Under the pieces are notes generated by a model. It was not told the DNA's origin, did not search any database, and saw only the letters and a list, made by a program, of their open reading frames with translations. DNA of 64,000 nucleotides. It comes from Flavobacterium sp. N2820 (GTDB taxonomy: Bacteria; Bacteroidota; Bacteroidia; Flavobacteriales; Flavobacteriaceae). Shown one piece after another: positions 466-15,493 of the stretch; positions within the stretch are counted from its first letter, which is position 1; each line of letters starts with the position of its first letter. The stretch lies in NCBI RefSeq assembly GCF_025947285.1, contig NZ_CP110008.1, forward strand, positions 1,503,001-1,567,000, in the 5' to 3' direction. The position numbers and the translations under genes were made by a program.

Positions 466-473
466 GTTTAATG

Positions 474-486
474 TGGTTAAATGGTT
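474..486 (-). promoter_or_regulatory. Leader motif AACCATTTAACCA before the gene starting at 465
   Basis: One of the near-identical 13-nt leader motifs found in front of start codons throughout the element. It lies 8 bases before ATG 465. No TAnnTTTG box precedes this copy, so it more likely acts at RNA or translation level than as a promoter. Confidence 0.6.
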
Positions 487-530
487 TTTTTTTACTGTGG
501 TTTTTTTTAAATACTAATTTTTTTGTTAGA

Positions 531-974
531 TTAAACTAACTGTGCTGGTGCTACTCTTACCTCTCTTGCAGGTTCCCAGTCTACTGGATTTCTCAAGCTA
601 CGTCCTAAACGTGCTGTTGCTGTTGGGTTTGACACCTCTGTTGTGTGGCCAATTACAGCATTAAGAAATTTACCTGTAGTTGTTGCATTGTCTTGTACTG
701 GTACACTGTCTTTCAACATATCAGTTACATAATCAGTTCCTTGTTTAACAGCCATTCCTACGAATGCTGCTTGTACTGCTTCGCCAGCAGTAGTTTTTGG
801 GTTTACCGAAGCAGCTGCAATTAACGCAACGCCAGTTACTAATAATTTTTTATAATTATTTGTACTTTCAGGCATTACATTAACAACTCCATCTGATAAT
901 TTTGCCCCTGCTACTCCTGCTCCTATTTTTACAACAGAAGACATAGCGCTTTTTTGTGATGGTTTTTGAAACAT
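531..974 (-). CDS. Small hydrophobic protein, probable virion/membrane-associated protein
   Basis: 147 residues, not recognised. Residues about 14-30 (Gly/Ala/Val-rich) and 42-58 (LLVTGVALIAAASV) are hydrophobic enough to be helical membrane segments. The C-terminal third is polar and ends in a basic-acidic stretch. It lies between the putative capsid gene and another membrane-anchored protein, all read leftward, which suggests a structural protein of a membrane-containing particle or a minor virion component. The start at 974 is supported by the leader motif at 984-996. Function is inferred from position only. Confidence 0.6.
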   Translation of the reverse strand: MFQKPSQKSAMSSVVKIGAGVAGAKLSDGVVNVMPESTNNYKKLLVTGVALIAAASVNPKTTAGEAVQAAFVGMAVKQGTDYVTDMLKDSVPVQDNATTTGKFLNAVIGHTTEVSNPTATARLGRSLRNPVDWEPAREVRVAPAQLV

Positions 975-983
975 GGTTTAAAA

Positions 984-996
984 TGGTTAAATGGTT
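984..996 (-). promoter_or_regulatory. Leader motif AACCATTTAACCA before the gene starting at 974
   Basis: Exact copy of the element's leader motif, 9 bases before ATG 974. No -7 box is visible upstream. Confidence 0.6.
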
Positions 997-1006
997 TTAT
1001 TTTATT

Positions 1007-1807
1007 TTAATTACTCACTAATTTACCTATGACAACACCCGCCAAAAGAAAACCGCCTAGTTTTAATAGGCTGTTACTGCTTTGTGGATTTTTTGGTGCT
1101 TCATTGGTTGGTTTTGGTTGGTTTTCTCCCGACATATCAACTGGTGCTGAATCTGTTGGTACTATCGTATTTCCTAATGTATAATTTGTAGCGGTTGCTT
1201 GAAATTTTACAAATGAAACAATTGGGAAAAGTAAATCTGCTGTACTTTCGATTGCTTTGTTTTCGGCAATATATTCTACTGGCGAAGCTTCAATAGCTTT
1301 GAAAATTATATGCTCTAAATGACCTATTAATTCTGTAACAAGTTCATTTCTTTGTTTTTGTGCTTCTTGTGATAACTTAGGATTGTCCCAGTTAAGATAT
1401 TCTTTCACAATAGCCAATTCGTTGTTAATTTCATTGATTAACTTCAATTGCAATTGAGCATTAGTAGTTTGCATTAAAACGGTTGCTTTTTCAACCATTG
1501 CCTTATATTTAGGCGCAAAACTTCTTGTAATCCAATTTTCAATAGCTATGTTTTCAACATCAGAAATCAATGCTGTGCCGTCTTCCGCAACATAAATACT
1601 ACCTCTACTAATTTCATCAATAGAAGTTCCAAATGCTTCTAAAAGTGCTTCAGCTAATTCACCTGGAATAGCTTGAATTGCAACTCTTACAGCTCCACGC
1701 CAAAGTCTACCAAAAAAACTTCTTTTTGGTTTGGTTGCTCCTTGAACCAATCCATTCACTCCTGTTGATACGGCTCTACCTAATGCTTTATTTGAATACT
1801 GTATCAT
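1007..1807 (-). CDS. Tail-anchored membrane protein, unknown function
   Basis: 266 residues, family not recognised. The N-terminal 60 residues are basic with an amphipathic stretch (RLWRGAVRVAIQAIPGELAEALLEAF). The middle is mostly helical and charged. A Pro/Ser-rich linker (about 220-243) leads to one C-terminal hydrophobic segment (about 247-264, LLKLGGFLLAGVVIGKLV), so it looks tail-anchored. The start lies 4 bases from the stop of the upstream transglutaminase-like gene, implying co-translation, and it is the one gene of this block without the ACCATTTAACCAC leader. Context suggests a minor virion protein; this is inference. Confidence 0.65.
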   Translation of the reverse strand: MIQYSNKALGRAVSTGVNGLVQGATKPKRSFFGRLWRGAVRVAIQAIPGELAEALLEAFGTSIDEISRGSIYVAEDGTALISDVENIAIENWITRSFAPKYKAMVEKATVLMQTTNAQLQLKLINEINNELAIVKEYLNWDNPKLSQEAQKQRNELVTELIGHLEHIIFKAIEASPVEYIAENKAIESTADLLFPIVSFVKFQATATNYTLGNTIVPTDSAPVDMSGENQPKPTNEAPKNPQSSNSLLKLGGFLLAGVVIGKLVSN

Positions 1808-1811
1808 GCTC

Positions 1812-3401
1812 TTATTTTTTTACTTGTTTAGATCCAGGACCATTGTCTTTCATTTTTGAAAATCCCCAAGCTAAAGCGCCAATAACTAAACCGCCAATGA
1901 TAATTACGCCACCGCCTGATTCAGTTGTTTTTTTAACTACAGCCGAACCACTACCCGGATTAGTGTTATTATTTCCGGTTGAACTTTCTCCTGGAAATGT
2001 ATCTAAAGGCGTATCAAAATATTCTAAAACATTATTTAACGATTGTAAATAAGTTGAAGAATCAAATGTGTTAGCTTTGTCCGCTTGAATTGTGTAATTT
2101 GTTAATTCAAATACTGGAATTGTAGAAACATCAGCTTTGATTGTATATTTATACTCTGGTTCGTTTATTGTTACCGTTTCTGCACCTCCAGCGCTTGTAC
2201 CCCAATAACCTGTGCCACTTGAATAACCTGTAGTTAATGATTTGTAATTTTTAAAAGTCAATGTTGATAACACACTACCTTTTGTGAAAAATTTATTTAA
2301 CCAAGCGTCTAATGCTTGAATTGCAGTAATTGAAAAGAATTCAGTTACTCTAATTGTAGCATCAAAATTGTCTTTTGAACAGGAATTCCAGCCTTGTGCT
2401 TGTTTTCCTTTTTTATACGCTGCATCGAGCATTTTTGCAAAACCTTTGAAGCTTGCAGTGTGAAAACCTAATAAACCAATATCGTTTAATGCCGCATTGT
2501 TGATTTGTAGCGCATAGTCTGCAAATGTTTTCGTCATTAATTTGGTATTGTTACGCAAATAATCTTTATCGTAAGCCGAACCGCCTATACAGTCAATACC
2601 ACTAAATAATGACATGATTGAATTAAAGTCCAGTTGATTAACAATTGAAGAAATAGAACCTGCATCAATTCCGTTTAATCCTACTGCAAATGGCGTTGTA
2701 GGTTGCGCTGTTAAAAATGGATATGTATATGGATTTGACAAACCAGAACTACAATCGCACGCTTGACCAGGACATGACAAAGCCGCACTATCTAAATTTA
2801 GATAAGGCGTGTTTAAATAAGGACTGGCTAAACCGATATGTTTTAAATTTTTCATGTTAAATTCGTGTTTTTCATGGAAATTCACTTCTTTATTGTCATG
2901 TGTTGTAGCGTCAATTATTAAATAAGAACCTTGATACGGAATTTGAACATAAACATGGCCCCAATCATTAGAGCCTTGCAATTTTACTTTTACAAACGAA
3001 TGATCAATATCTTGACACAATAATAATGCGGATGCCAAACTTGAAAATGTTTTACAATCAAAACCTACTTTTCTAAAATGCCATGCAGCACTTGGAGCAT
3101 AAATTTGTTGTAAACTTTCGTCGATTTTATACTGAAAATGTTTGTATAAAAAAGTGTAATTGTTTTTTACTGTTTCAAGAACGTTTTTACCTTTTAGCAC
3201 ATTGGCCACTTTTTGAAATTGGTTAGCATACTTATTGGTCCAATAGGCCATGTATTCTAACGTATCATAAGTATCTGAAAACTCTTGTGGCAATTCAAAA
3301 CTATGTTTTACGTGTTTATAGTTAGGAATTAGGCCGCTATATTGCGAACCCGATTCTAACTTTCTGTAGAGCATAGTATTAATTAATTGCGCTTCACTCA
3401 T
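1812..3401 (-). CDS. Transglutaminase-like cysteine protein with C-terminal membrane anchor
   Basis: 529 residues. Residues about 80-170 carry a transglutaminase-like (papain-fold) triad: Cys116 in GFDCKTFSSLA, His149 in WGHVYV and Asp164 in IIDATT, in the right order and spacing. A long region without a recognised domain follows, including a short Cys-rich stretch (CPGQACDC) near 210-217. One transmembrane helix (about 497-516, VIIIGGLVIGALAWGF) is close to the C-terminus. In this superfamily the triad serves proteolysis, crosslinking or amide hydrolysis. In a phage it could process virion proteins or attack peptidoglycan crosslinks during entry. It is the first gene of the leftward late block, behind a long structured 5' leader. 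The fold call is solid by motif; the substrate is unknown. Confidence 0.7.
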   Translation of the reverse strand: MSEAQLINTMLYRKLESGSQYSGLIPNYKHVKHSFELPQEFSDTYDTLEYMAYWTNKYANQFQKVANVLKGKNVLETVKNNYTFLYKHFQYKIDESLQQIYAPSAAWHFRKVGFDCKTFSSLASALLLCQDIDHSFVKVKLQGSNDWGHVYVQIPYQGSYLIIDATTHDNKEVNFHEKHEFNMKNLKHIGLASPYLNTPYLNLDSAALSCPGQACDCSSGLSNPYTYPFLTAQPTTPFAVGLNGIDAGSISSIVNQLDFNSIMSLFSGIDCIGGSAYDKDYLRNNTKLMTKTFADYALQINNAALNDIGLLGFHTASFKGFAKMLDAAYKKGKQAQGWNSCSKDNFDATIRVTEFFSITAIQALDAWLNKFFTKGSVLSTLTFKNYKSLTTGYSSGTGYWGTSAGGAETVTINEPEYKYTIKADVSTIPVFELTNYTIQADKANTFDSSTYLQSLNNVLEYFDTPLDTFPGESSTGNNNTNPGSGSAVVKKTTESGGGVIIIGGLVIGALAWGFSKMKDNGPGSKQVKK

Positions 3402-3412
3402 ATACTTTTTTT

Positions 3413-3471
3413 AGAAACTGGCGTTTAGGAACGTATGTTTGATGTGCTACGTGTAAACGCCGTATGTTTCT
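3413..3471 (-). promoter_or_regulatory. Long imperfect hairpin in the 5' leader of the transglutaminase-like gene
   Basis: Three nested complementary blocks are visible: 3413-3418 with 3466-3471 (AGAAAC/GTTTCT), 3420-3427 with 3454-3461 (GGCGTTTA/TAAACGCC) and 3431-3435 with 3448-3452 (ACGTA/TACGT). That gives 19 base pairs with two small internal bulges. It lies between the presumed transcription start near 3490 and ATG 3401, so it would form in the mRNA leader. It could also be a replication structure, since it adjoins the 10-bp repeat array. Confidence 0.55.
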
Positions 3472-3481
3472 GTGGTGGGTG

Positions 3482-3504
3482 TGGTTAAATGTGACCCAAA
3501 TATA
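3482..3504 (-). promoter_or_regulatory. Probable leftward late promoter with leader motif at its start site
   Basis: On the - strand TATATTTG (3497-3504) matches the Bacteroidota -7 consensus TAnnTTTG exactly. CATTTAACCA, a partial copy of the element leader motif (3482-3491), lies where the transcript should begin. No TTTG is seen at the -33 position, as would suit an activator-dependent promoter. The 10-bp repeat array begins 20 bases upstream. Confidence 0.5.
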
Positions 3505-3523
3505 CTTCCGTTAAATAATTGAC

Positions 3524-3613
3524 TTGTAGGATTTTGTATGATTTGGTAGTATTCTGTAGGATTTTGTAACATTATGTAACATTATGTAGGATTATGTATG
3601 ATTTTGTAATGTT
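3524..3613. repeat. Nine tandem 10-bp repeats, consensus NTGTANNATT
   Basis: Nine consecutive units of exactly 10 bp, for example TTGTAGGATT, TTGTATGATT, CTGTAGGATT, TTGTAACATT, ATGTAACATT, ATGTAGGATT and ATGTATGATT. Units 3 (TGGTAGTATT) and 9 (TTGTAATGTT) are the most degenerate. One unit per helical turn puts every TGTA on the same face of the DNA. The array lies between the leftward -7 box (3497-3504) and the rightward one (3632-3639). It is probably a cooperative protein-binding array: an operator or activator site, a partition site, or origin iterons. Confidence 0.75.
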
Positions 3614-3631
3614 TTTAATTGAAATTTTTTA

Positions 3632-3655
3632 TATTTTTGACCTACCATTTAACCA
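3632..3655 (+). promoter_or_regulatory. Rightward promoter -7 box followed by leader motif
   Basis: TATTTTTG (3632-3639) matches TAnnTTTG. ACCATTTAACCAA (3643-3655) follows at the expected transcript start, mirroring the leftward promoter across the repeat array. The nearest TTTG upstream (3603-3606) is 25 bases away, longer than the usual 19-21 spacing. Confidence 0.5.
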
Positions 3656-3663
3656 ATTTAGCT

Positions 3664-3864
3664 ATGAGTGATACTACCGAATTTAAACCGATGAGAAAAG
3701 GTGAAGTATTGGCAAAATTTGCCACTTTTTTTGGGCGTGAAAATGTTCGTCAGAAAATATGGGAAATAGTAAAGAATAATAGACAAATACCTCTGTGTGA
3801 AGCAAAACACGTTAAAGGTTTAAGAAAATCTGAAGTAAAGATGATACATGAAGAATACGCATAA
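3664..3864 (+). CDS. Small basic protein, candidate DNA-binding regulator
   Basis: 66 residues from ATG 3664. An upstream in-frame TTG at 3619 would put the -7 box and leader motif inside the coding region, so it is rejected. The protein is helical and basic (GEVLAKFATFFGRENVRQKIWEIV, then GLRKSEVKMIHEEYA), a composition that suits a small DNA-binding protein, but no classical helix-turn-helix can be claimed. It is the only rightward gene in the left part of the element and sits beside the 10-bp repeat array, making it the obvious candidate to bind that array. It converges on the terminator at 3867-3888. Function is inference from position. Confidence 0.6.
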   Translation: MSDTTEFKPMRKGEVLAKFATFFGRENVRQKIWEIVKNNRQIPLCEAKHVKGLRKSEVKMIHEEYA

Positions 3865-3866
3865 AA

Positions 3867-3888
3867 AAACCCGAAATTAATCGGGTTT
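3867..3888 (-). terminator. Rho-independent terminator of the long leftward operon
   Basis: Stem AAACCCGA / TCGGGTTT (3867-3874 with 3881-3888) with a 6-nt loop. Read leftward it is followed by a run of T, so it best terminates transcription arriving from the gene ending at 3877, whose stop codon is inside the hairpin. Rightward the T tract is poor. Confidence 0.7.
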
Positions 3889-4245
3889 GTTAGATTGTGA
3901 TTTTTTTACATTATAATTTTTATAATTTTTTAATAACCATATATTGTAATCATCTAATTCATCTTCTGTAAACTGGTGTAATTGTTCGTTGTAAAAAACA
4001 AGATCCTTTTTTAAAAATTCAGTAAGTGAAATGTAATAATTATTGTTATGACGTGGTTTTGGCTGTTCCTTTTTATTATCGCTAAACGCTAAGATAATTA
4101 CTATTACAGGAACCGATACAAATGCTAATGTTAATTGAAAAAAAGATATTTTATTTTCGAGAATCATATCTATAAACGTGAAAAATGTAATTAAAATACT
4201 TGATATTATTACATATTTCCATTCGATTTTTTTAAATTTTCCCAT
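3877..4245 (-). CDS. Membrane protein with two transmembrane helices, unknown
   Basis: 122 residues. Two hydrophobic segments, about 11-28 (YVIISSILITFFTFIDMI) and 34-54 (FFQLTLAFVSVPVIVIILAF), form a hairpin. A polar, Asn/Tyr-rich C-terminal tail of about 65 residues follows and is probably cytoplasmic. No family is recognised. It is the last gene of the leftward early operon, starting 8 bases after the stop of the 58-residue gene at 4254-4430. It could be a superinfection-exclusion or membrane-modifying protein, but nothing in the sequence shows this. Confidence 0.6.
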   Translation of the reverse strand: MGKFKKIEWKYVIISSILITFFTFIDMILENKISFFQLTLAFVSVPVIVIILAFSDNKKEQPKPRHNNNYYISLTEFLKKDLVFYNEQLHQFTEDELDDYNIWLLKNYKNYNVKKSQSNKPD

Positions 4246-4253
4246 ATTCTAAA

Positions 4254-4430
4254 TTATTTTAAATTAGTGTTGATATAGTCTAATTCTAACTCCGTAAGTT
4301 CTTTGTTAGATTTTATTTTATCGCCTGATAAAATAATTTTTACCTCTATGCCATTGGCTCTAAAAATGTAAAAAGTATCTTCATCATGGATAGATTTTAC
4401 ACATACTACATACAAATCCTTTATTTTCAT
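4254..4430 (-). CDS. Small protein (58 aa), unknown, translationally coupled
   Basis: 58 residues starting at ATG 4430. The start overlaps the stop of the preceding gene as TAATG, a clear sign of translational coupling, so the reading frame is real despite its size. The sequence runs MKIKDLYVVCVKSI then acidic and hydrophobic residues, ending DYINTNLK. It reads like one small alpha/beta domain. No signal peptide, transmembrane segment or known motif is visible. Confidence 0.6.
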   Translation of the reverse strand: MKIKDLYVVCVKSIHDEDTFYIFRANGIEVKIILSGDKIKSNKELTELELDYINTNLK

Positions 4431-4675
4431 TAGTCGAAAATTGAAAGTTGAACGTTGTTTTTTGGTTCCTGAATTTCCATTGTTTCACAAAGTTTTGGGT
4501 TCATTGCAATATACTTTTCCATGTACTGCAAATGTGCTAACGTGCAACGTTGTAAGTCTGGAAACGTTTGCTTAAACTTTATTATTGGAATGGTTTCTCC
4601 TGTGGGTTTAACCGCCAGTAAAACGTTATTTAAACGTTGGTAACTGGCAGCACCTTTAATGATTGGAATAGTCAT
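4430..4675 (-). CDS. Small hypothetical phage protein
   Basis: 81 residues, no recognised domain. Soluble composition with a central helix (FKQTFPDLQRCTLAHLQYMEKYIAMNPKLCETM). Its start overlaps the stop of the upstream gene by ATGA (4672-4675), and its own stop overlaps the next start by TAATG, so it is the middle of a coupled four-gene set (5153 to 4254). The coupling supports the frame; function is unknown. Confidence 0.6.
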   Translation of the reverse strand: MTIPIIKGAASYQRLNNVLLAVKPTGETIPIIKFKQTFPDLQRCTLAHLQYMEKYIAMNPKLCETMEIQEPKNNVQLSIFD

Positions 4676-4887
4676 CTTTCGTTTAATTGATTAAAAAATA
4701 GTTGGTTAAATGCTTCGTTGTGTAGTTTTTCTTCGTGAATTTCTTCGGGTGTTTTCTGTCGTATTTTATTGATTAATAGCAATAATGAAACGCATAAAAT
4801 AAAGATGAAAAATGTTGTAATACTGGGTTTACAATTATTGTTTAGAAAATGTGCTGCTTTTGTAAAAAAGGTTTCTATTTTTTTCAT
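4672..4887 (-). CDS. Small single-pass membrane protein
   Basis: 71 residues with one transmembrane helix (about 21-42, ITTFFIFILCVSLLLLINKI) followed by a charged tail (RQKTPEEIHEEKLHNEAF). It is coupled by 4-base ATGA overlaps to both neighbours. The size and single helix would fit a holin-like or membrane-anchoring role, but there is no lysis gene beside it in the window, so no function is assigned. Confidence 0.6.
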   Translation of the reverse strand: MKKIETFFTKAAHFLNNNCKPSITTFFIFILCVSLLLLINKIRQKTPEEIHEEKLHNEAFNQLFFNQLNER

Positions 4888-5153
4888 AGTCTTGGATTAT
4901 TTAAAAGGTTTTGAATATTATCTAATTTCCGTTGTAAATCATCTAATCGTTCCTGAAGGTTTAATTGCTTTTTGTGTTTCATTTCAATAATGCGGTTTAG
5001 CCTGGCAACGTCTTTTACAAGTTCTAAGTAATTTTCTAACGAAAAGAAAAGTATATCAGGAACGGTTTTCAAGTTTTGCGCAGCGGCAACTTCTTCCAGT
5101 TGCTTTTTTTGTTTGGCTGTAAACTTGCGTATGTAGGTGGAATCTTTAATCAT
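4884..5153 (-). CDS. Small coiled-coil protein, unknown
   Basis: 89 residues. The N-terminal half (IRKFTAKQKKQLEEVAAAQ then a hydrophobic helix) resembles small DNA-binding or mobilisation-type proteins. The C-terminal half (about 55-86) is a leucine-rich heptad coiled coil (LNRIIEMKHKKQLNLQERL then further heptads). It could be a dimeric accessory protein. It is first of the set of overlapping genes 5153 to 4254 and starts 30 bases after the stop of the 106-residue gene. No family is assigned. Confidence 0.6.
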   Translation of the reverse strand: MIKDSTYIRKFTAKQKKQLEEVAAAQNLKTVPDILFFSLENYLELVKDVARLNRIIEMKHKKQLNLQERLDDLQRKLDNIQNLLNNPRL

Positions 5154-5183
5154 GTTATTAAAATGTAGATTTATTTAACTTTT

Positions 5184-5504: not shown

Positions 5505-5506
5505 GA

Positions 5507-7111
5507 TTAAGCTGATTTTAAAAGTTTATAATTTAGTAATGCGTTGTAGTTTGCTTGAATTAATGCTTTTGCCTGATTTACTTCGACTGCGTTTCCAATG
5601 AATTTTTTTTGCTCCGTTTGTGTACCGATTAACTTGTAATCTTTTGGAAATCCTTGTATTTGTTTTAGTTCTGGAATGTTTAGCATTCTCATTTTTATGT
5701 CAATAACTCCGTTTAAAACCATGAATTCCTTAATTTTTATCATGGTTTCTGAATCGCTTTCGTAAACTGGAATCGTAATTTGTCCTAATTCTGTAGAAAC
5801 TAAATACAAAGGTGCTTTGTCCTGACGTGCTACAACTGTGCAACATGGTGCATCAATACTGCCATTGTTGCCGCCCCAAGCAGGATTAAAAATGTATTGC
5901 TGTGCTTTTACTAAATTAAACTTTGGAACAGTTGTAAGTGTGCCTATTGGCTTTTCAATTGAAGCCGCTACACCTGTGCCGTATTGTTGATCAATAAAAT
6001 TCACATCCACTTTTGTAATTCTGTCTTTTGTGGTAATGGTTGGTGCTGGCGCATCGATTGAGTGTAAACCAAAATTGCCGTAATAAGTAGAAAGATGCGA
6101 AGCGGTTACGATTGCTTGACCTCCTACGGTTGTAACAGTTCCTGCTGGTTCATCAACCGAAATTACTTTCCCCTCTGGACGGCCTGAATAGTATTTTTTA
6201 ATAAAAACCGATTTCACAAGTGCATGAGTGCCATTTGTACAAATAGTTCCCATTGGTTTCTCAATAGAGTTTACTTTTTGTTCGGGTTTTATTTTTCCAC
6301 CGTTGTAACGTTTGGTAAAAACTGGCTCTCCATTTGCAACAAATTTTAAAAGTCCGGCATGAATGCGTTTTAATGTATTTTCCGAAAGTGGTTTTTTACG
6401 TTCAAAAATACTAACGCCCTCATCTTGTAAGTCTAAAACTTCGCGAACTGGTTTCCATTTTTCCATTGGAAACAACGGACTTTCAATTTTATCTTTTGTA
6501 TGTGTTTGTTCTGGAAACGCAATTGGTAAACCGTGCTTTGCAAACTGGATAAATAAACGCTCACGACTTTGGTAGGCTCCATAGTTTGCCGAATTTAATA
6601 GTTTAGCATCGTATTTAAAACCGAAAGATTTAACTTTTTCAATCCATTTTACGTAATCTTTACCCTCAGTTCTTGAAAGTGGTTTGCCGTTTTCGCACAA
6701 AGGCCCCCAACACATAAACTCACGAACATTCTCTACAAAAAAGTAATCAGGTTCTAATTGTTCTAAATACATGAACATATGTTCGGCTAACGTTCGGCTG
6801 TCGGCATCTCTTGCTTGACCGCCTTTTGCTTTTGAAAAATTAGTACATTCTAAACTCGCCCAAATATTGATCATACAATCAGGTTCATTTTTGCGGATTT
6901 CCTGAACTAATTTTTTAAGTTTTAGTACTACTTCAAAATCTCGGATATCTTCGGTAAAATGGTATGCTTTTGGGTGGTTTTCAAAGTGCGATTTTATGGC
7001 ATTTGCATCATGATTAACACAAGCTAAAACTTTTGTGTTTTCACTGGCTAAATGTATGCCCGAAGAAGTGCCGCCTGCACCGCAAAATAAATCGATATAG
7101 TAAATATTCAT
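5507..7111 (-). CDS. DNA (cytosine-5-)-methyltransferase
   Basis: 534 residues. It transfers a methyl group from SAM to C5 of cytosine in DNA. Visible C5-MTase motifs: motif I DLFCGAGGTSSG (residues 7-18); motif IV SLECTNFSKAKGG with catalytic Cys89; motif VI FFVENV (124-129); motif VIII YQSRERLFI (about 178-186); and a C-terminal GFPKDY / QKKFIGNAVEVNQA segment matching motifs IX-X. The Pro normally before the catalytic Cys is Glu here. Residues about 270-440 hold about five degenerate repeats of the form S-I/V-D/E-x-P-x-G/P-T-x-T-T, probably the target-recognition region. No restriction gene is adjacent, so it is an orphan phage methyltransferase, likely anti-restriction or regulatory. The start is supported by the leader motif at 7113-7125. 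Confidence 0.88.
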   Translation of the reverse strand: MNIYYIDLFCGAGGTSSGIHLASENTKVLACVNHDANAIKSHFENHPKAYHFTEDIRDFEVVLKLKKLVQEIRKNEPDCMINIWASLECTNFSKAKGGQARDADSRTLAEHMFMYLEQLEPDYFFVENVREFMCWGPLCENGKPLSRTEGKDYVKWIEKVKSFGFKYDAKLLNSANYGAYQSRERLFIQFAKHGLPIAFPEQTHTKDKIESPLFPMEKWKPVREVLDLQDEGVSIFERKKPLSENTLKRIHAGLLKFVANGEPVFTKRYNGGKIKPEQKVNSIEKPMGTICTNGTHALVKSVFIKKYYSGRPEGKVISVDEPAGTVTTVGGQAIVTASHLSTYYGNFGLHSIDAPAPTITTKDRITKVDVNFIDQQYGTGVAASIEKPIGTLTTVPKFNLVKAQQYIFNPAWGGNNGSIDAPCCTVVARQDKAPLYLVSTELGQITIPVYESDSETMIKIKEFMVLNGVIDIKMRMLNIPELKQIQGFPKDYKLIGTQTEQKKFIGNAVEVNQAKALIQANYNALLNYKLLKSA

Positions 7112-7112
7112 G

Positions 7113-7125
7113 TGGTTAAATGGTT
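7113..7125 (-). promoter_or_regulatory. Leader motif AACCATTTAACCA before the cytosine methyltransferase
   Basis: Exact copy of the element leader motif, one base before ATG 7111, the closest spacing in the element. No TAnnTTTG box precedes it. Confidence 0.6.
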
Positions 7126-7129
7126 TAAA

Positions 7130-8408: not shown

Positions 8409-8414
8409 ACGAAT

Positions 8415-8684
8415 CTAATTTTTAGATGCTTTTTTTTGTGCCTTGAAGTTTTTTTTCAACTCTTTGTATTGAAAAATTGCACCTTGCTGGGTTTTAGCAT
8501 AAATGGTAACGGCACCATTTTCAAAAAGAAAGGGTTTTAATCCGTTTTTTTCTAAGTTTTTTTTATGCTGCTTTTGAAACTGATACTCACGCCATGCAGG
8601 AATAAAAATTGCTCTAATGAATAATGAAAGTAAATAGCCTGCACTCAATAGTAAAATGGCTAAAAAAATAAGATTTGTTTTCAT
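8415..8684 (-). CDS. Small single-pass membrane protein
   Basis: 89 residues. An N-terminal hydrophobic helix (about 3-27, LIFLAILLLSAGYLLSLFIRAI) acts as signal anchor. It is followed by a basic, Lys/Gln-rich region predicted to lie on the cytoplasmic side. The start is confirmed by the leader motif at 8686-8698. No family recognised. Confidence 0.65.
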   Translation of the reverse strand: MKTNLIFLAILLLSAGYLLSLFIRAIFIPAWREYQFQKQHKKNLEKNGLKPFLFENGAVTIYAKTQQGAIFQYKELKKNFKAQKKASKN

Positions 8685-8685
8685 G

Positions 8686-8698
8686 TGGTTAAATGGTT
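8686..8698 (-). promoter_or_regulatory. Leader motif AACCATTTAACCA before the gene starting at 8684
   Basis: Exact copy of the element leader motif, one base from ATG 8684, with the same spacing as in front of the cytosine methyltransferase. Confidence 0.6.
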
Positions 8699-8702
8699 TT
8701 TG

Positions 8703-9188
8703 TTATTTTTTATGGTTTTTATAAGATATACTTTTATTATCTGTTAAACACTCAATAGCTTCAAATTGTGTATGAAAATCGCTGACTTTAAATGAAATAT
8801 CTATATGACTAATTGAATGATATGCTTTTGAAATAACGAAAAAACAAATTTCATTATTTATTAAAAATTTTAATACTTCTTTTCCAAATTCAGTATCAGA
8901 AGAAAAACATCTAGGAGAAATACAATCATATAAATTTAAAGACTTAGCAAAATTGTAATCAAATTTTATCAGAGCAGTACTTAAAAAATCTATTAAATCA
9001 AAATTTTTATTTTTAAACTTTGATAGAAGTAAAGGATATTGGAAATGTTTTTTTTTATCTTCAACTAATTTAAAAAATTCATAAGCCTCAATAAATTTTT
9101 GTTTAAAAAAATCTTCTGTATCTTTATAGATATTATCATCATTAAAAGCTAATTCACTCATTATAAAAATTGATGTTGTTTTTTTCAT
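8703..9188 (-). CDS. Hypothetical protein (161 aa)
   Basis: 161 residues, soluble and rich in Phe, Lys and Asp. No known motif is visible. An internal Met at residue 10 could also be a start, but ATG 9188 is preceded by TTTAAACACTAACAAA, a leader shared with the gene starting at 9669, so the longer form is preferred. Very low GC content, like its neighbours. Function unknown. Confidence 0.55.
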   Translation of the reverse strand: MKKTTSIFIMSELAFNDDNIYKDTEDFFKQKFIEAYEFFKLVEDKKKHFQYPLLLSKFKNKNFDLIDFLSTALIKFDYNFAKSLNLYDCISPRCFSSDTEFGKEVLKFLINNEICFFVISKAYHSISHIDISFKVSDFHTQFEAIECLTDNKSISYKNHKK

Positions 9189-9213
9189 TTTGTTAGTGTT
9201 TAAATTGTTGATA

Positions 9214-9459
9214 TTATTTTTTAAAGTTCTTTTTAGGTTTGGTAAAAAATTTACTTGGTTTTTGTTCGTAATACGTTGTCATTTCTACTAAATTACCTCT
9301 GTAGTTTTTTATTGGAAATGGTTCGGGTTCAAATGCTATATTTTTTGTCTGTTGATCTTCAATAATTACTACCTTTTCAAGATTTTGTAAACTGGCTACT
9401 TTTTGAATTGCTAAAACAATTTCATGACTACAGCTACCAATGATTGCAATTTTTGTCAT
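9214..9459 (-). CDS. Hypothetical protein (81 aa)
   Basis: 81 residues. It begins with an alternating hydrophobic strand and a Gly-Ser turn (KIAIIGSCSHEIVLAIQKV), followed by LEKVVIIEDQ, which looks like a small alpha/beta fold. A basic tail (KFFTKPKKNFKK) follows. It lies between two small genes of the same strand with short gaps. No enzyme motif can be claimed. Confidence 0.55.
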   Translation of the reverse strand: MTKIAIIGSCSHEIVLAIQKVASLQNLEKVVIIEDQQTKNIAFEPEPFPIKNYRGNLVEMTTYYEQKPSKFFTKPKKNFKK

Positions 9460-9474
9460 TTTTTTTTGAATTCG

Positions 9475-9669
9475 TTAAAAGAAAAAACCGATAATTATTA
9501 ATCCAAAAAAACCGATCAGAAAACAAACTATACCTAAAATCAAAAATCCAGTTAATATGTTAGATACAGTTTCACTTTCTTTCGCTTCTATTGAATTAGC
9601 AGCCGATAATCCAAAAGCAATGAATAAGAAAGCGCCAATTATTGCCAATGGCATTAAAATTTGTTCCAT
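9475..9669 (-). CDS. Small membrane protein, two transmembrane helices
   Basis: 64 residues, almost entirely hydrophobic: one helix about 4-24 (ILMPLAIIGAFLFIAFGLSAA), a short acidic loop (NSIEAKESETVSN), then a second helix about 38-63. The hairpin topology and size would fit a holin, but no endolysin is adjacent, so this stays a possibility only. The start is supported by the leader TTAAACACTAACAAA shared with the gene at 9188. Confidence 0.6.
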   Translation of the reverse strand: MEQILMPLAIIGAFLFIAFGLSAANSIEAKESETVSNILTGFLILGIVCFLIGFFGLIIIGFFF

Positions 9670-9680
9670 TTTGTTAGTGT

Positions 9681-10016
9681 TTAATAATTATAACTTAATT
9701 GTTTTGCTATATGTCTTATCGATTTTTGTAATTTTTCCAAATCCAACCATTCTTTTAATGATCTAATTTTAGTTTCTTTACCGTAATCAATATCTCTAAT
9801 TTGAAGTTTTAATTCTTGATTAATAATTGAAAAATCAACTTGAACAGCTTCATCAATTTTTTCGTTTTTTACAAATACGGAAAGTGGATTAGGTCCATAA
9901 CTTTCATTTATTATTTCAATACTGATATGAAAACCGTTATAATCAAATCTAACTTCGCTATAATTACAACCATCATTATGATCAAATACTTCAATATCTT
10001 CTTTTTTTAAGTTCAT
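9681..10016 (-). CDS. Hypothetical protein (111 aa)
   Basis: 111 residues from ATG 10016. An in-frame ATG at 10037 exists but lies inside a segment copied from the 3' end of the replication gene (10031-10078), so it probably arose by that duplication and is not preferred. The protein is acidic (MNLKKEDIEVFDHNDGCNYSEVRF at the N-terminus) with alternating beta strands and a C-terminal helix. No family recognised. Its stop falls within the TTAAACACTAAC leader of the next gene. Confidence 0.55.
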   Translation of the reverse strand: MNLKKEDIEVFDHNDGCNYSEVRFDYNGFHISIEIINESYGPNPLSVFVKNEKIDEAVQVDFSIINQELKLQIRDIDYGKETKIRSLKEWLDLEKLQKSIRHIAKQLSYNY

Positions 10017-10030
10017 AACTCTATTTTTTT

Positions 10031-10078
10031 GTTGCATACTCTCTTAAACGTTCGGTAAATTATAATTTGATAATTGCC
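10031..10078 (-). repeat. Partial copy of the 3' end of the replication gene
   Basis: About 42 of 48 bases match 10540-10587, the tail of the replication gene encoding NYQMKFTERLREYSTKK, allowing one indel. The two copies are 509 bp apart and directly oriented, bracketing the 10044-10523 gene. The indel shifts the frame, so the copy now forms the last codons of that gene. Confidence 0.75.
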
Positions 10079-10523
10079 ACCCACCAATTTTTCTTATATG
10101 ATTTTCATTAATATTATTGGTTTTACAAATTGTTGATATTATATTATTATACTCATCTTGTTTTAATTTATTTATATAATGAATATCAAACTCATTTGTA
10201 CTTTGCATTTCTTTAATAGATAAATCAAAAATTTTTAATGCTTTATTTATTTCAATTATTGTTTTTTCAACAATTTTTGATAATTCTTTAAGTGGTCTTT
10301 TATTTACTTTGAAAATTTCTTCGTTTAAAAAGTTATCGTAAACTGTAATTTCTGAAAACCCTTTAATAATTGTATTAAAGTGAATAAGTCTTGATAACAT
10401 CCTTGAAGTTATTTCTTCAACTGGTTTATCATTTTCTTTTATATAAGAATAATATATAAGTGTTTTTTTATTTAATAAAACTTCTACTTTTATTCTACTT
10501 TTTTCTTCGCTCCAAATTGCCAT
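10044..10523 (-). CDS. Hypothetical protein, paralogue of the 73-aa protein with C-terminal extension
   Basis: 159 residues. Residues 1-72 resemble the 73-residue protein at 8187-8408 (W, K-V/I-E-V, YYS, MLSRL, GFSEITVYDN). A Lys/Ile-rich helical extension of about 85 residues follows. The final residues (about NYNLPNV) come from an out-of-frame copy of the replication-gene tail (10031-10078), so the 3' end was shaped by a recombination event. It starts 6 bases after the stop of the replication gene. Function unknown. Confidence 0.6.
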   Translation of the reverse strand: MAIWSEEKSRIKVEVLLNKKTLIYYSYIKENDKPVEEITSRMLSRLIHFNTIIKGFSEITVYDNFLNEEIFKVNKRPLKELSKIVEKTIIEINKALKIFDLSIKEMQSTNEFDIHYINKLKQDEYNNIISTICKTNNINENHIRKIGGWQLSNYNLPNV

Positions 10524-10529
10524 ATTATA

Positions 10530-12287
10530 TTATTTTTTAGTTGAATACTCTCTTAAACGTTCGGTAAATTTCATTTGATAATTAGCAGGAAGATTGTTTT
10601 TAACGTAATCCAACGTATCGTTTAATGAAATTCTATTGTTTTTGAAGCGGTTGAATACCAAATCAAATTTTTTCGCATAATTGATACGTTCTTTACGTTC
10701 TTTTGCCGCTTTTAATGCTTGTTTTTCTTCTGTAATTCGGTTTTCGAGTGCTTTTTTATTGGATAAAAATGCTTTTTTAGTGTACTCAAAGCCAATTTCT
10801 TTAGGCGATTGACGTGTAAAATCAAAATATTGGTTCGGATAAAGTGGTGTAACGTTCTTTGACGTGAACCATTTGTGTGCGTGGTTTAATCTCCAACGGT
10901 ATTCTTGCAGTTTTTCTACCATTAATTCCTTGTTATACAAATTTCCGTTCACTAAAAACTTCTTATTGGTCCAGGTGTCCAATGCTTTTTTCCATGAACC
11001 GAAGAAAGGTGTTGAATTTCTGTATAATCGGGCAGCTTCTTTAAAAAATTCCTGAATGATCAATTCTTTAAAACGTTCACGGCTCATAGTTCCGCTTACT
11101 GATTCATGATATAATTCTCTAATATCAAGCGGTTTGTAGTAATTGAATTGGCCAGATGCTAACTTATTGCACAATTCAAACTCATTTTCAATAAAATTTT
11201 CCAATTTTTCCGAAATTTTAACACTTTTTTCGCCGCCCCCCAGTTTGCCTTTTTCAACTTGCGCAATGGTGTTACTGTCAATGTTATTGTTAAAATTAAA
11301 ATCAGGCGAAGCCGTTCCTTTTATAAGAGAAATGTTTTGAACATTCTCTTTTATTTTACTTTTATTTAATTCTGTTACAGTAACCTCTTTATTATTACCA
11401 AAACTTTTAGCGGTTCGGGGCGTAAAGCGCTGATTTTCAGACGTAGCCAAATCTCCAGAATGTTGGTCGAAAACAACCAAAATTTCACGGTTTATATGTG
11501 CTTTTACGCCTCTTTTATGACCGCAAAAGGTGTAATCGAATAAAATGCCTGCTTCGACTAAATTACGTCTGTGATTCTTGATCGTTTCTTTACAAACGTC
11601 TATCGAAGCAATTCCGTTTCTTTGAAGCATTACAATTTTTAGCGAATTAATTTCAAGCATTTTAATAGGGCGATTTTCAACTATTCCCATGTCTTTGAAT
11701 ACTTTTGTGTTTTGTGCTAATTGTTGGCTGTATTCGTATAAGAATTGCTGAAAAACCAATTCTGACTGGTATTTGATAATGTGCAGCTTCTTCTTTTTCA
11801 AGATAACGCCTTTGTCTTCAAAAATCTCGTCTACTTTTTCATTGTATGCAACTGGAAGAAGTGAATTATATTTCTTTACAAACAAATTAGCGAACGTTTG
11901 TTTTACGTCGTCATCTTGTTTTGCAGGAACGTTTAAATTGTGTTTTTCAATGGCAATGTTCTCCAGTTTGCGCATTTCGTTTAGTTTAGAAACGTAAATA
12001 CGGTACTTATCCATCGTTAAAGCAAATGCTTCTCCATTAATTTCAGGAAAAACGGCTTTTAACGGCTGTTGATTTTTAGTGTTATTGGTAAAATCAACGT
12101 GTAATCGACGTGTTTTTTCGGTACGTTCAACGTCTAATGAACGTATATCTGTTTCACGTTTAACGTCTAATGAACGTGTTTCAATTTCACGTTCAACGTG
12201 TAATGAATTTACGTTAACTGGGAGTAGTTGTCCAAATATAGTATTGTGAAATATCTCTCCAGCTTGTTTAGAGTTTCCTATTCGCAT
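10530..12287 (-). CDS. Probable replication initiator protein containing iterons
   Basis: 585 residues, the largest gene of the early operon. The N-terminus (28-71) contains four 11-residue repeats of form S/R-L-H/D-V-x-R-E/T-x-x-x-R/K, encoded by four 33-bp DNA repeats. Residues about 210-270 look like a winged helix (LEINSLKIVMLQRNG, then a recognition helix KETIKNHRRNLVEAGILF and a wing GHKRGVKAH). The C-terminus is Lys/Arg-rich and helical. Repeats inside an initiator gene recall lambda O, whose gene carries the origin iterons. No Walker or endonuclease motif is seen, so it would be an origin-binding rather than a nicking or helicase protein. The role is inferred from the winged helix plus iterons. 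The start is supported by the leader motif at 12298-12310. Confidence 0.55.
   Translation of the reverse strand: MRIGNSKQAGEIFHNTIFGQLLPVNVNSLHVEREIETRSLDVKRETDIRSLDVERTEKTRRLHVDFTNNTKNQQPLKAVFPEINGEAFALTMDKYRIYVSKLNEMRKLENIAIEKHNLNVPAKQDDDVKQTFANLFVKKYNSLLPVAYNEKVDEIFEDKGVILKKKKLHIIKYQSELVFQQFLYEYSQQLAQNTKVFKDMGIVENRPIKMLEINSLKIVMLQRNGIASIDVCKETIKNHRRNLVEAGILFDYTFCGHKRGVKAHINREILVVFDQHSGDLATSENQRFTPRTAKSFGNNKEVTVTELNKSKIKENVQNISLIKGTASPDFNFNNNIDSNTIAQVEKGKLGGGEKSVKISEKLENFIENEFELCNKLASGQFNYYKPLDIRELYHESVSGTMSRERFKELIIQEFFKEAARLYRNSTPFFGSWKKALDTWTNKKFLVNGNLYNKELMVEKLQEYRWRLNHAHKWFTSKNVTPLYPNQYFDFTRQSPKEIGFEYTKKAFLSNKKALENRITEEKQALKAAKERKERINYAKKFDLVFNRFKNNRISLNDTLDYVKNNLPANYQMKFTERLREYSTKK
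12095..12211. repeat. Four 33-bp iteron-like direct repeats inside the replication gene
   Basis: Cores begin at 12095, 12128, 12161 and 12194, exactly 33 bp apart. They read CAACGTGTAATCGACGTG, CAACGTCTAATGAACGTA, TAACGTCTAATGAACGTG and CAACGTGTAATGAATTTA. TTCACGTT or TACGTT lies before the last three. The spacing is three helical turns and eleven codons, so the array is in phase both as DNA and as protein. It is a candidate replication origin. Confidence 0.7.
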
Positions 12288-12297
12288 GGTGTGGTCG

Positions 12298-12310
12298 TGG
12301 TTAAATGGTT
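12298..12310 (-). promoter_or_regulatory. Leader motif AACCATTTAACCA before the replication gene
   Basis: Exact copy of the leader motif, 10 bases before ATG 12287. The stop codon of the preceding gene (TAA at 12301-12303) is embedded in it. Confidence 0.6.
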
Positions 12311-12747
12311 GGTTTTATCTTTGTATATTTCAACTGAAATTGTTCTTCTGATATTGTATCATTTTCTATTAAAATAGAATGTTCATCAGGAATATTTATA
12401 TTCAAAAAACTAGCTATTATTTCTTTTTCGATTTTGTTTTCAAAAAAAATAAATTTTTCAACTCTATATTGTATTTGGATTAATTCAATATATTTTTTGT
12501 TTTCTGAAAATTTAATTGTGTTAGTAGCGCATCTAATAGAATCATCTTTACTTTTAATTCTACCTCTTTTTGTGATTATAATTATTTTTGACTTATAATC
12601 ATATATACTCTTTTTATCAAAAATTATCAAATCACCTACACTAGCTTCTGGACAATTTATTTTACATATTTCTAAATTTTCATAAGTAACTTTTCCAGTT
12701 ATAGGTAATGTAAATTTGAAAAATCTTTTGCAATTTCCTTTAATCAT
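12301..12747 (-). CDS. Hypothetical protein (148 aa)
   Basis: 148 residues from ATG 12747; a TTG two codons further upstream is less likely. It is rich in Lys, Ile and Asn with alternating strands. Segments such as GDLIIFDKKSIYDYKSKIIIITKRG look like a small beta-barrel, possibly an SH3- or OB-like fold, but no family can be named. It ends in the leader motif of the replication gene and starts 11 bases after the preceding stop. Confidence 0.55.
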   Translation of the reverse strand: MIKGNCKRFFKFTLPITGKVTYENLEICKINCPEASVGDLIIFDKKSIYDYKSKIIIITKRGRIKSKDDSIRCATNTIKFSENKKYIELIQIQYRVEKFIFFENKIEKEIIASFLNINIPDEHSILIENDTISEEQFQLKYTKIKPTI

Positions 12748-12758
12748 AACCAAAATAA

Positions 12759-13076
12759 TTAATTCAAAATTGCTTTTGATTGTGAAACGATAAGAATAAG
12801 TATCTTTTTAGTTGGGTTGTAGTTGAAGTATCTAACTTTAAAACCAAATTGACTAAGTACGGCCAATATTTGCTTTGAATTTGGCTGTAAATCGGCATCA
12901 AAGAAAATTTTTATTGTGTCAACTGGTTTGGAATTTAAAGTTATTCTTGAATGCTCTACGTAGTGGATACATAATAAATTAAGAATATGATCCATAGGCT
13001 GCATAATGGTAACAGGAAGCGTATTAACCGCTTGTGTAGTGTTTCCCTCGTTGAATATTGTAGTGACATTTTGCAT
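12759..13076 (-). CDS. Hypothetical protein (105 aa)
   Basis: 105 residues. The second half (DTIKIFFDADLQPNSKQILAVLSQFGF, then VRYFNYNPTKKILILIV) predicts a beta-alpha-beta arrangement. No motif is recognised. The leader motif at 13084-13096 supports its start. Function unknown. Confidence 0.6.
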   Translation of the reverse strand: MQNVTTIFNEGNTTQAVNTLPVTIMQPMDHILNLLCIHYVEHSRITLNSKPVDTIKIFFDADLQPNSKQILAVLSQFGFKVRYFNYNPTKKILILIVSQSKAILN

Positions 13077-13083
13077 GATGTGG

Positions 13084-13096
13084 TGGTTAAATGGTT
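13084..13096 (-). promoter_or_regulatory. Leader motif AACCATTTAACCA before the gene starting at 13076
   Basis: Exact copy of the motif, 7 bases before ATG 13076. It overlaps the stop codon of the preceding gene (13095-13097). Confidence 0.6.
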
Positions 13097-13379
13097 ATTC
13101 AGTTATAACTTGTTCCATTTTTGAAAATTTAACCTTGTAAATCATCATTTTTGGAAAAGCTGTTGAAGATTTTGTTTCTAAAATTTCTTCTATTTTGTAT
13201 AAAACTTTTGTAGTTGCGTTTTTATACTTTTTTGAAGAAATTTCAACGACATCACCAACCACTACGGTTGCATCTTTTTTAATTCTAAATTGGAATATTG
13301 GTTCTTTTAAATATTCCTTTTCACTTGTTGGCCATGTAATAACGGCACAATTTTTAAAATCGTTTTCAAATGTTTGCAT
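13095..13379 (-). CDS. Hypothetical protein (94 aa)
   Basis: 94 residues with strong beta-strand alternation (FRIKKDATVVVGDVVEISSKK, TKVLYKIEEIL, MIYKVKFSKMEQV), consistent with one small beta-barrel domain. No cysteine motif or membrane segment. It is part of the early leftward operon. The start ATG 13379 has no copy of the leader motif; an A-rich stretch precedes it. Confidence 0.55.
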   Translation of the reverse strand: MQTFENDFKNCAVITWPTSEKEYLKEPIFQFRIKKDATVVVGDVVEISSKKYKNATTKVLYKIEEILETKSSTAFPKMMIYKVKFSKMEQVITE

Positions 13380-13396
13380 GATTTTTTACGTTTTAA

Positions 13397-13618
13397 TTAA
13401 TTATCTGAAGTAATAAATTCGGGTGAATCAACTTGCATCATTAAAATGCTTGTTGCATCTAATAATGTTTCGGCAATAACTTTTCGTTGTTGCTTTAAAT
13501 ACACAATTGTTGGGTTTAATTGTGGTGCTTCATTGTCTTTTTCAGACAATTCGCTCAATACTTCTACTGCCATTTGGTAGCGGTTGTATTTTTCTTGAAT
13601 TTCTTTTGGTTTTTGCAT
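13397..13618 (-). CDS. Small helical protein, first gene of the early leftward operon
   Basis: 73 residues, helical, with KEIQEKYNRYQMAVEVLSEL and a second helix KQQRKVIAETLLDATSILMM. No domain recognised. It is the first gene of 60 or more codons downstream of the operator and -7 box at 13728-13751, and the leader motif at 13627-13639 supports its start, so it is probably among the earliest expressed proteins. Confidence 0.6.
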   Translation of the reverse strand: MQKPKEIQEKYNRYQMAVEVLSELSEKDNEAPQLNPTIVYLKQQRKVIAETLLDATSILMMQVDSPEFITSDN

Positions 13619-13626
13619 GATATTAA

Positions 13627-13639
13627 TGGTTAAATGGTT
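13627..13639 (-). promoter_or_regulatory. Leader motif AACCATTTAACCA before the gene starting at 13618
   Basis: Exact copy of the motif, 8 bases before ATG 13618, between the leader hairpin at 13666-13711 and the first operon gene. Confidence 0.6.
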
Positions 13640-13665
13640 TTTTTAATAATGATAACCTTTCAGGA

Positions 13666-13711
13666 GAGGACAATTTTTACATATCTTCAAATAGTAATTC
13701 ACATTGTCCTC
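13666..13711 (-). promoter_or_regulatory. Leader hairpin, 9-bp inverted repeat
   Basis: GAGGACAAT (13666-13674) and ATTGTCCTC (13703-13711) are perfect complements with a 28-nt loop. The hairpin lies between the presumed early start near 13738 and the first operon gene. It has no adjacent T tract, so it could be an mRNA stabiliser, an antitermination site or a protein site. Confidence 0.45.
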
Positions 13712-13727
13712 AACTTCCAGGAATCAT

Positions 13728-13751
13728 GCAAGTTTAACTTGCGCAAAGGTA
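13728..13751 (-). promoter_or_regulatory. Early leftward promoter with palindromic operator
   Basis: Read leftward, TACCTTTG (13744-13751) matches TAnnTTTG. The perfect palindrome GCAAGTTTAACTTGC (13728-13742, 7-bp arms) covers the expected transcription start. A palindrome over a start site, with an XRE repressor gene 640 bp away on the other strand, is the arrangement of a phage switch. No TTTG is evident at -33. Confidence 0.5.
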
Positions 13752-13790
13752 TTGTTGAAAAAAGTGTTTCATTTTTGGCATTAATTTTGT

Positions 13791-13835
13791 TTATTTGTAG
13801 CTGTAAGGGTGGTTCCTTACAAATCTGCACCGCAT
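13791..13835 (-). CDS. Tiny ORF (14 aa) behind a full leader motif
   Basis: ATG 13835 opens a 14-codon frame (MRCRFVRNHPYSYK) with the leader motif at 13840-13851 placed as for the larger genes. Length alone gives no support; only the leader does. It may be a leader peptide, the remnant of a lost gene, or chance. Confidence 0.25.
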   Translation of the reverse strand: MRCRFVRNHPYSYK

Positions 13836-13839
13836 GGTG

Positions 13840-13851
13840 TGGTTAAATGGT
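13840..13851 (-). promoter_or_regulatory. Leader motif ACCATTTAACCA before the 14-codon ORF
   Basis: A 12-base copy of the motif, 4 bases before ATG 13835. It contains the stop codon of the gene ending at 13843. Confidence 0.5.
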
Positions 13852-15415: not shown

Positions 15416-15427
15416 TATCAATTGTAA

Positions 15428-15469: not shown

Positions 15470-15493
15470 CGAAAAGGAAGCTTTTAAAAATCA

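Follow-up and report, generated by a model that had tools for sequence, protein, structure and literature searches.

Short repeats that stand just before the start codons of many genes of one phage are known as Start-Associated Sequences (SAS) from Cluster K mycobacteriophages and Cluster EF Microbacterium phages (PMC3203893, PMC7302621). These reports describe a 13-base-pair (bp) non-palindromic repeat with 10-19 copies per genome, located a few nucleotides (nt) before the starts of a subset of genes. The repeat may contain the stop codon of the upstream gene, is nearly absent from the host (Cluster K), and is not sufficiently explained by ribosome pairing alone; at about half of the sites, an extended SAS carries 17-bp inverted repeats upstream (PMC3203893, PMC7302621). 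SAS were described in mycobacteriophages in 2011 as of unknown function (PMC3203893), and no later explanation was found in the literature searched. Here we describe a comparable leader in a prophage-like element of 33.7 kb (genome 1484661-1518470) in the 3.06-Mb genome of Flavobacterium sp. N2820. The window, a 64-kb stretch of this genome, covers the element except its left part. Judging from sequence, we consider it fairly probable that the leader is the RNA site of a trans-acting regulator of translation or messenger RNA (mRNA) fate, and that this regulator is probably encoded by the element.

The leader resembles SAS in being an asymmetric repeat of ~13 nt with at least 10 copies, oriented with the gene and placed a few nt before starts (11 exact copies here, 10 of them before starts), and in its near-absence from the host chromosome. 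SAS contain an AGGAG Shine-Dalgarno core, whereas the consensus here contains no G. The leader works like SAS but is not classed as SAS because it has no Shine-Dalgarno core. It further differs in its two-box form (ACCA-spacer-ACCA), its element-specific versions, its copies away from starts and a structured RNA with the core in loops, and it belongs to a different phage group and phylum. No description of such a motif in Bacteroidota phages was found in the open-licence literature searched.

Three protein-on-RNA systems offer further comparisons. T4 RegA is a translational repressor (PMC3014915). A factor of this type, which also regulates itself, would account for a site shared phage-wide by the initiation regions of many messages. 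RegA sites are loosely conserved, whereas the leader copies are near-identical, and no RegA homolog was recognised among the element proteins scanned. In the CsrA/CsrB system, a noncoding RNA displays a short single-stranded GGA core in its hairpin loops, and the core recurs close to target starts. The element likewise has a conserved core in RNA hairpin loops and in target start regions, which we take as an analogy only; the core here is ACCA instead of GGA, and the RNA with the loops (RNA1) lies inside the phage operon. No CsrA homolog was found in scans that covered part of the element proteins. RbpB, a Bacteroides RNA recognition motif protein, is reported to prefer single-stranded regions including 5' untranslated regions (PMC11697453), and thus offers a Bacteroidota RNA-binding protein with a suitable preference. 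It is, however, a host protein with AU-rich and small RNA ligands in that account, and would leave motif versions that differ between phages of one genus unexplained.

Leader copies precede a fixed set of genes

The 12-base core ACCATTTAACCA occurs 13 times exactly in the whole genome, 11 times in the element and twice in the remaining ~3.02 Mb, both times within long open reading frames (ORFs; 407 and 346 amino acids (aa)). The original suggestion that the motif is specific to the element is supported. A start codon follows ten of the eleven element copies at a gap of ~1-10 nt, as had been predicted; the remaining one (13839) is part of a noncoding stretch. Two of the exact copies stand before genes left of the window (genome 1493638 and 1488834), where copies with one mismatch are found after the 195-aa gene and before another ATG near the integrase end. 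About one fifth of the element's genes are led by a copy. Twelve leader-bearing elements including this one were compared, three of them partly covered, with 5-16 strict copies each and 120 in total. The leaders in the window and their recurrence at orthologs are as follows.

473-485, minus strand: leader before the 195-aa, putatively capsid-like gene (start 465); orthologs led in 9/12 elements
983-995, minus strand: leader before the 147-aa gene (531-974); by a loose pattern led in 8/12 elements, one (G051) doubtful
3632-3639, plus strand: TATTTTTG, Bacteroidota -7 promoter box, 4 nt upstream of a leader
3644-3656, plus strand: leader at the predicted mRNA 5' end of the small reverse gene
7112-7124, minus strand: leader before the DNA C5-methyltransferase gene (5507-7111)
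8685-8697, minus strand: leader before the 89-aa gene (8415-8684; hydrophobic N-terminus); 9/10 orthologs led
12297-12309, minus strand: leader before the 585-aa gene (10530-12287); 7/12 orthologs led
13083-13095, minus strand: leader before the 105-aa gene (12759-13076), touching the upstream stop codon
13626-13638, minus strand: leader before the 73-aa gene (13397-13618); 2/6 orthologs led

With up to two mismatches to the 13-mer, the window contains 13 matches against 2.97 expected, and none of 100 shuffles reaches 13 (maximum 7). The copies first listed are therefore real, with coordinates about 1 too high (474-486 there is 473-485 here). Nine matches have at most one mismatch (473, 983, 3644 on the plus strand, 7112, 8685, 12297, 13083, 13626 and 13839). 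Among the matches with two mismatches, that at 3481-3493, originally taken as a partial leader at 3482-3491, lies ~80 nt upstream of the 529-aa gene, whose family has a leader within 45 nt in 0/12 elements, and is probably a chance match. Another lies inside a gene (4702). The match at 9196, 7 nt upstream of the 161-aa gene, may be a degenerate leader and was left out of the leader counts, and a further one (58190) lies outside the leader analysis.

Across the twelve elements, 85 of the 120 strict copies are found between -4 and 25 nt of an ORF start on the same strand, compared with 4.3% for random placement, and 13 lie inside ORFs, compared with 90%. This positional enrichment had been proposed as a check of the original prediction and is clear in the element and its relatives. 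Among the 85, the gap to the start is -1 in 6, 1-5 in 16, 6-10 in 53 and 11-20 in 10. The orientation of the leader follows that of the gene on both strands. Several of the 35 remaining copies are artefacts of simple ORF calls (e.g., four reverse-gene leaders), and the true exceptions are of two kinds. One is a noncoding stretch near the operon start, which carries one to four copies. The other lies after the 195-aa gene, where a hairpin with a T run is present in 12/12 elements; a leader copy precedes this terminator in 10/12 (exact in seven, with 1-2 mismatches in this element, G061 and J27) and is absent in G340 and G452.

The same orthologs are led again and again across elements, while other families are not. 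The 797-aa family is led in 10/11 cases and the small reverse gene in 10/12, compared with 0/8 for the repressor and 0/12 each for the 529-aa, 62-aa and 177-aa families. Predicted single-strandedness is also higher for the leaders than for the corresponding position upstream of unled starts (0.753, n = 69, vs 0.615, n = 355, the latter set possibly including some weak leaders; p = 1e-8).

Versions of the leader in related elements

Relatives were sought with the 292-aa and 195-aa proteins of the element. The former led to five further elements among 199 same-genus genomes, an earlier genome scan with it having given no relative. The latter matched in 14/397 genomes of the family, 10/395 of the class and 35/398 of the genus (own genome counted in each tally), and a second genome scan with alignment gave eight named Flavobacterium contigs. 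One locus, G1051, coincides by coordinates with that of F. gillisiae and was counted once. Protein searches of IMG/VR and INPHARED phages gave no relative, and the 28 IMG/VR contigs matching the 16-mer ACCATTTAACCAYATG, with one match each, were rejected as chance-like. ACCATTTAACCA is present in 90 of the 199 same-genus genomes at 0-5 copies each, except for the own genome (13) and G061 (9).

Each element mostly uses one version of the leader, and the version differs between groups of elements. ACCATTTAACCA (ACCA-TTTA-ACCA) is used in this element, G061 (F. sp. NRK F7) and G834 (F. profundi), with the TTTA spacer in 11 copies in this element (G000) and 8 each in G061 and G834. ACCATTAAACCA (ACCA-TTAA-ACCA) is used in G066 (F. 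fluviatile), G051, G113 (F. degerlachei) and F. gillisiae, with the TTAA spacer in 9, 12, 11/12 and 13 copies, respectively. G009 (F. limnosediminis) has ACCATTTAAAACC (ACCA-TTTAAA-ACCA; 10 copies, four starting with GCCA). In other genera, G452 has ACCAAATAAATACCA (ACCA-AATAAAT-ACCA; 16 cores) and G340 has ACTATTTAAAATTACCA (ACTA-TTTAAAATT-ACCA; 7/10 copies).

Counts of the pattern ACCA-W3-7-ACCA are 131 for the leader-bearing elements (341 kb), compared with 19 for ten leaderless relatives (344 kb), 3 for host flank (62 kb) and 19 for the 20 sister elements of the same genus (701 kb). When the word was permuted in the twelve elements, ACCA gave 131, AACC 71, CCAA 34, ACAC 6, CAAC 6 and CACA 5, the AACC and CCAA counts partly overlapping the motif itself. 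An unguided count of 8-mers before ORF starts likewise found one 8-mer at 6-12 starts in 11/12 leader-bearing elements (only 3 in F. suncheonense, a mixed case) and at most 5 in the other listed elements, except G952 with 7.

Thirty more distant places were found in the genus, of which 20 (in 19 genomes) were examined, and these 20 elements contain no leader of this kind. Since these sisters manage without it, the leader is no general substitute for Shine-Dalgarno sites. The strong form of the original prediction, an alternative initiation signal, is thus not supported; gaps ranging from overlap to 20 nt and copies in untranslated places also speak against it.

A conserved structured RNA carries the core in predicted hairpin loops

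The noncoding stretch near the operon start contains a conserved structured RNA on the operon strand (RNA1), which is followed by a second stretch (RNA2).

13797-13875, minus strand: RNA1, conserved structured RNA with a leader copy between two hairpins
13803-13820, minus strand: RNA1 hairpin 3, loop AACCAC
13828-13839, minus strand: RNA1 hairpin 2 (CACCATGCGGTG)
13839-13851, minus strand: leader copy in RNA1, single-stranded in the predicted fold
13852-13875, minus strand: RNA1 hairpin 1, loop AACCAC
13651-13743, minus strand: RNA2, another conserved noncoding stretch of the leader region that appears to be structured; ends in CTGAAAGGTTA

The copy at 13839 overlaps the stop codon of the upstream gene and stands between two RNA1 hairpins; it is not the leader of a conserved gene, as the original prediction of a copy before a gene start (13840-13851) had it. 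RNA1 was read in ten elements (J27, whose upstream stretch is not covered, lies outside this reading), most of which fold alike into a hairpin, the leader, a small hairpin and a hairpin. The stems of the outer hairpins differ, while their six-base loop is mostly (A/U)ACCAC. The loop core ACCA is invariant in 16/16 aligned hairpins from nine elements, a set that leaves out the G834 hairpins (H1 identical to that of G061), H3 of G061 and G834, H1 of G340 and further G452 hairpins. Stem cells are 87.5% paired. Cells changed on both sides number 63, compared with 19.8 in shuffles (0/500 reach this), and the covariation score is 0.970, compared with 0.215 in shuffles (0/500) and at most 0.306 when slid.

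In an unselected scan of 2701 hairpins with a six-base loop and four or more unbroken pairs, the loops AACCAC and TACCAC together occur 10 times against 1.8 expected, and nine of the ten lie in the RNA1 region. Neither loop is present among 2946 six-base-loop hairpins in ten leaderless relatives. In F. suncheonense, a leader-bearing element whose RNA1 region had not yet been read and the sole one in which the prediction could be tried, two such hairpins around a leader copy had been predicted beforehand and were found. Because of the invariant ACCA loops, the covarying stems, the unselected scan and the F. suncheonense hairpins, the recognised form is most likely RNA and the recognised core most likely ACCA; single-stranded DNA is a possible alternative form.

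RNA2 lies at the same place in seven relatives and consists of a hairpin, a ATNATTCC-like stretch, a second hairpin and CTGAAAGGTTA. Rfam gave no gathering-level match for RNA2 in this element or at six loci, the five listed matches being below gathering scores. RNA2 could be a riboswitch, a ribozyme or origin-related.

A small reverse-strand gene with a message predicted to begin at a leader

3664-3864, plus strand: small reverse gene for a 66-aa protein of no known family, helical by prediction; candidate for the trans-acting factor

All twelve leader-bearing elements have a small member of this gene family (63-79 aa) oriented opposite to the operon. A perfect TAnnTTTG box lies 3-5 nt before a strict leader at this gene in 10/12 elements; in J27 the box is present and the leader has a mismatch, and in G452 neither is perfect. 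These are the only ten of the 120 strict copies with such a box, so that a Bacteroidota -7 promoter motif at fixed spacing is no general companion of the leader. In this element only the 3644 copy has it, which agrees with the original statement that most copies lack a promoter box. In probable promoters of F. johnsoniae, a published account gives 4-5 nt from the -7 box to the transcription start (PMC6847099). Given this distance, the message of the reverse gene should begin at or beside the leader.

The 66-aa protein is modelled as helical (predicted local distance difference test score (pLDDT) 79) and has 52 relatives among the matches listed, the window's own included. A resemblance to the C-terminal domain of ribosomal protein L7/L12 was not upheld by profile comparison.

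Proposed function of the leader and alternative explanations

Gene starts, one message 5' end, the stretch ahead of a terminator and noncoding RNA loops all carry the site, and we therefore favor an RNA-binding factor that acts in trans. This factor is more likely the element's than the host's, since leader versions vary among elements of a single host genus and the sisters examined there lack the leader. The original prediction of an element-specific RNA or protein site that coordinates genes is in line with the placement at starts and the orientation with genes; a site in RNA, bound perhaps by a protein, is the most likely reading. The sequences themselves show the motif, its placement, the separate version in most elements, the recurrence before orthologs, the structured RNA with its invariant loop core and the lack of such a leader in the sisters examined. 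We infer the binding factor, its identity, the direction of its effect and the decoy role of RNA1 as follows. The cis site, with the core ACCA and normally the form ACCA-(A/T)4-9-ACCA, would be read in single-stranded RNA before the starts of a fixed gene set. This site would be bound by a factor acting in trans, for which an element-encoded RNA-binding protein is most likely, and the factor would set the translation or stability of the led messages as a group. From the position of the site, the effect would most simply be a RegA-like block of the ribosome, activation being the other possibility. RNA1, with ACCA in two hairpin loops and between them, would probably be a decoy for the factor or a sensor of it, by analogy with CsrB and CsrA. 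The product of the 66-aa reverse gene seems the likeliest factor or co-regulator and is, on sequence grounds, the leading candidate for the reader of the leader, no more.

Several observations weigh against this reading. The openness of the leaders may be explained by the absence of G alone. The 16 hairpins were picked by eye, a choice that favors pairing, and two of five covariation measures are unremarkable: further pair types (23 vs 21.5; 169/500 shuffles as high) and pairs changed on both sides (9 vs 7.4; 22/500 shuffles). H3 of G061 and G834 has a 7-nt loop, and H1 of G340 has no ACCA. Other spacers occur in 4-5 copies of G061 and G834, and F. suncheonense and F. sp. J27 are mixed; therefore, strict spacer recognition is not general. 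The 66-aa protein has no credible fold match and no recognisable RNA-binding fold. Leaderless elements also have homologs of this protein, running with the operon in 19/20 same-genus sisters, the remaining one having no homolog found, so that the expected further genus-level elements with a reversed gene number 0/20. Outside the genus, G325 and G568 have reversed homologs and no leader. Presence of the gene is also not selective, as the 585-aa, 73-aa and several structural families are likewise found in 12/12 elements.

The best surviving alternative is a DNA site, namely a promoter element, or an operator bound by a transcription factor of the element, with one site for each transcription unit. 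Phage repressor-operator pairs typically come in versions private to each element; at the reverse gene, moreover, the leader covers the predicted transcription start, where an operator would block. We nevertheless regard a DNA site as unlikely, since a TAnnTTTG box at that spacing is missing from 110 of the 120 copies, some copies directly adjoin the ATG or overlap it, and RNA1 keeps the ACCA core alone, in loops with covarying stems, which recognition of double-stranded DNA leaves unexplained.

Rather more doubtful is an enhancer of translation that acts in cis, is recognised by the host ribosome (Kozak-like, or as an unstructured leader of the bS1 type) and is homogenised by recombination within an element. 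Bacteroidota initiate translation without depending on Shine-Dalgarno pairing, and in F. johnsoniae initiation is helped by adenines upstream and by weak structure (PMC6847099), which would suit the unusually single-stranded leaders. Such an enhancer, however, is hard to reconcile with twenty same-genus sisters that manage without it, with versions that differ between elements of one genus, with conserved copies in untranslated places (before the terminator and in RNA1), and with the variable distance to the ATG.

Slightly less probable again is a site for mRNA processing or a transcript boundary (endonuclease or antitermination), at which the long operon message would be cut before genes and a terminator: the copies at intergenic borders, beside the RNA1 hairpins and just before the terminator after the 195-aa gene would fit, but one copy coincides with a predicted primary 5' end, which requires no cutting, and no candidate nuclease was recognised among the element proteins scanned, a part of the proteome with most proteins unidentified. 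Shine-Dalgarno or 16S 3'-end pairing was rejected, as the consensus versions contain no G by inspection. A complementary guide RNA of the element was also rejected, because complements on the operon strand were seen only as the antisense of minus-strand leader copies. These are the leaders at the small reverse gene and a few more: G061 has two, G340 has one ahead of a different reverse gene, and G066 has one with one mismatch. Antisense transcription is a possible source of such a complement.

Within the favored reading of an RNA site for a trans-acting regulator, we tentatively suggest that the phage family might possess a private RNA code, in which a small element-encoded regulator reads ACCA-spacer-ACCA, is titrated by the loop RNA of the same operon, and co-evolves with the leader. 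If so, each phage would use its own dialect and control the messages that belong to it, leaving those of its host and of rival phages untouched. If the favored reading is right, it would reveal a layer of post-transcriptional control owned by the phage in Bacteroidota, which initiate translation without Shine-Dalgarno pairing, and might also provide an orthogonal leader/reader pair for use as a genetic tool. Natural variation offers leverage on these ideas, with twelve elements, several versions, leaderless sisters in the same genus and a covarying RNA.

Boundaries and gene content of the element

14384-14770, plus strand: Cro/CI-type helix-turn-helix repressor-like gene; leader before 0/8 orthologs
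15427-15470, no strand: right attachment core, element end, a 44-bp repeat of the 3' end of the methionine transfer RNA (tRNA-Met) gene at genome 1484692-1484735

The element is flanked by the tRNA-Met gene and the 44-bp copy of its 3' end. An integrase-like gene, identified from its position and family relatives, lies at one end, and the Cro/CI-type regulator gene lies near the opposite end. A PHROGs scan of ~20 element proteins revealed no portal, terminase or known major capsid family, and it matched a 399-aa protein to a PHROG named tail protein (E 5e-42). The model of the 195-aa protein, of moderate confidence (pLDDT 69.7), gave weak capsid-like matches, the best to SPV1 (E = 5e-3), and a capsid-like role is a lead from this model. 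This protein has at least 157 homologs without a Pfam domain. The element may represent an undescribed phage group.

Other repeats in the elements compared

G952, from another family of the class, has its own start-associated repeat, (A/T)TAACCCC, before ~9 start codons and nothing clearly homologous to the 66-aa gene (best E 0.96). The habit of start-associated repeats may thus be wider than the ACCA motif. In G498, from another genus, 13 copies of the perfect palindrome CCGTTGCAACGG lie within and between genes in ~21 kb, and this palindrome looks like a repressor operator or a similar DNA site. The 40-kb surroundings of G113 contain a repeat of 10-11 copies (TTGCATTACC..., AATAGTAACAT...) that is apparently unrelated to the leader.

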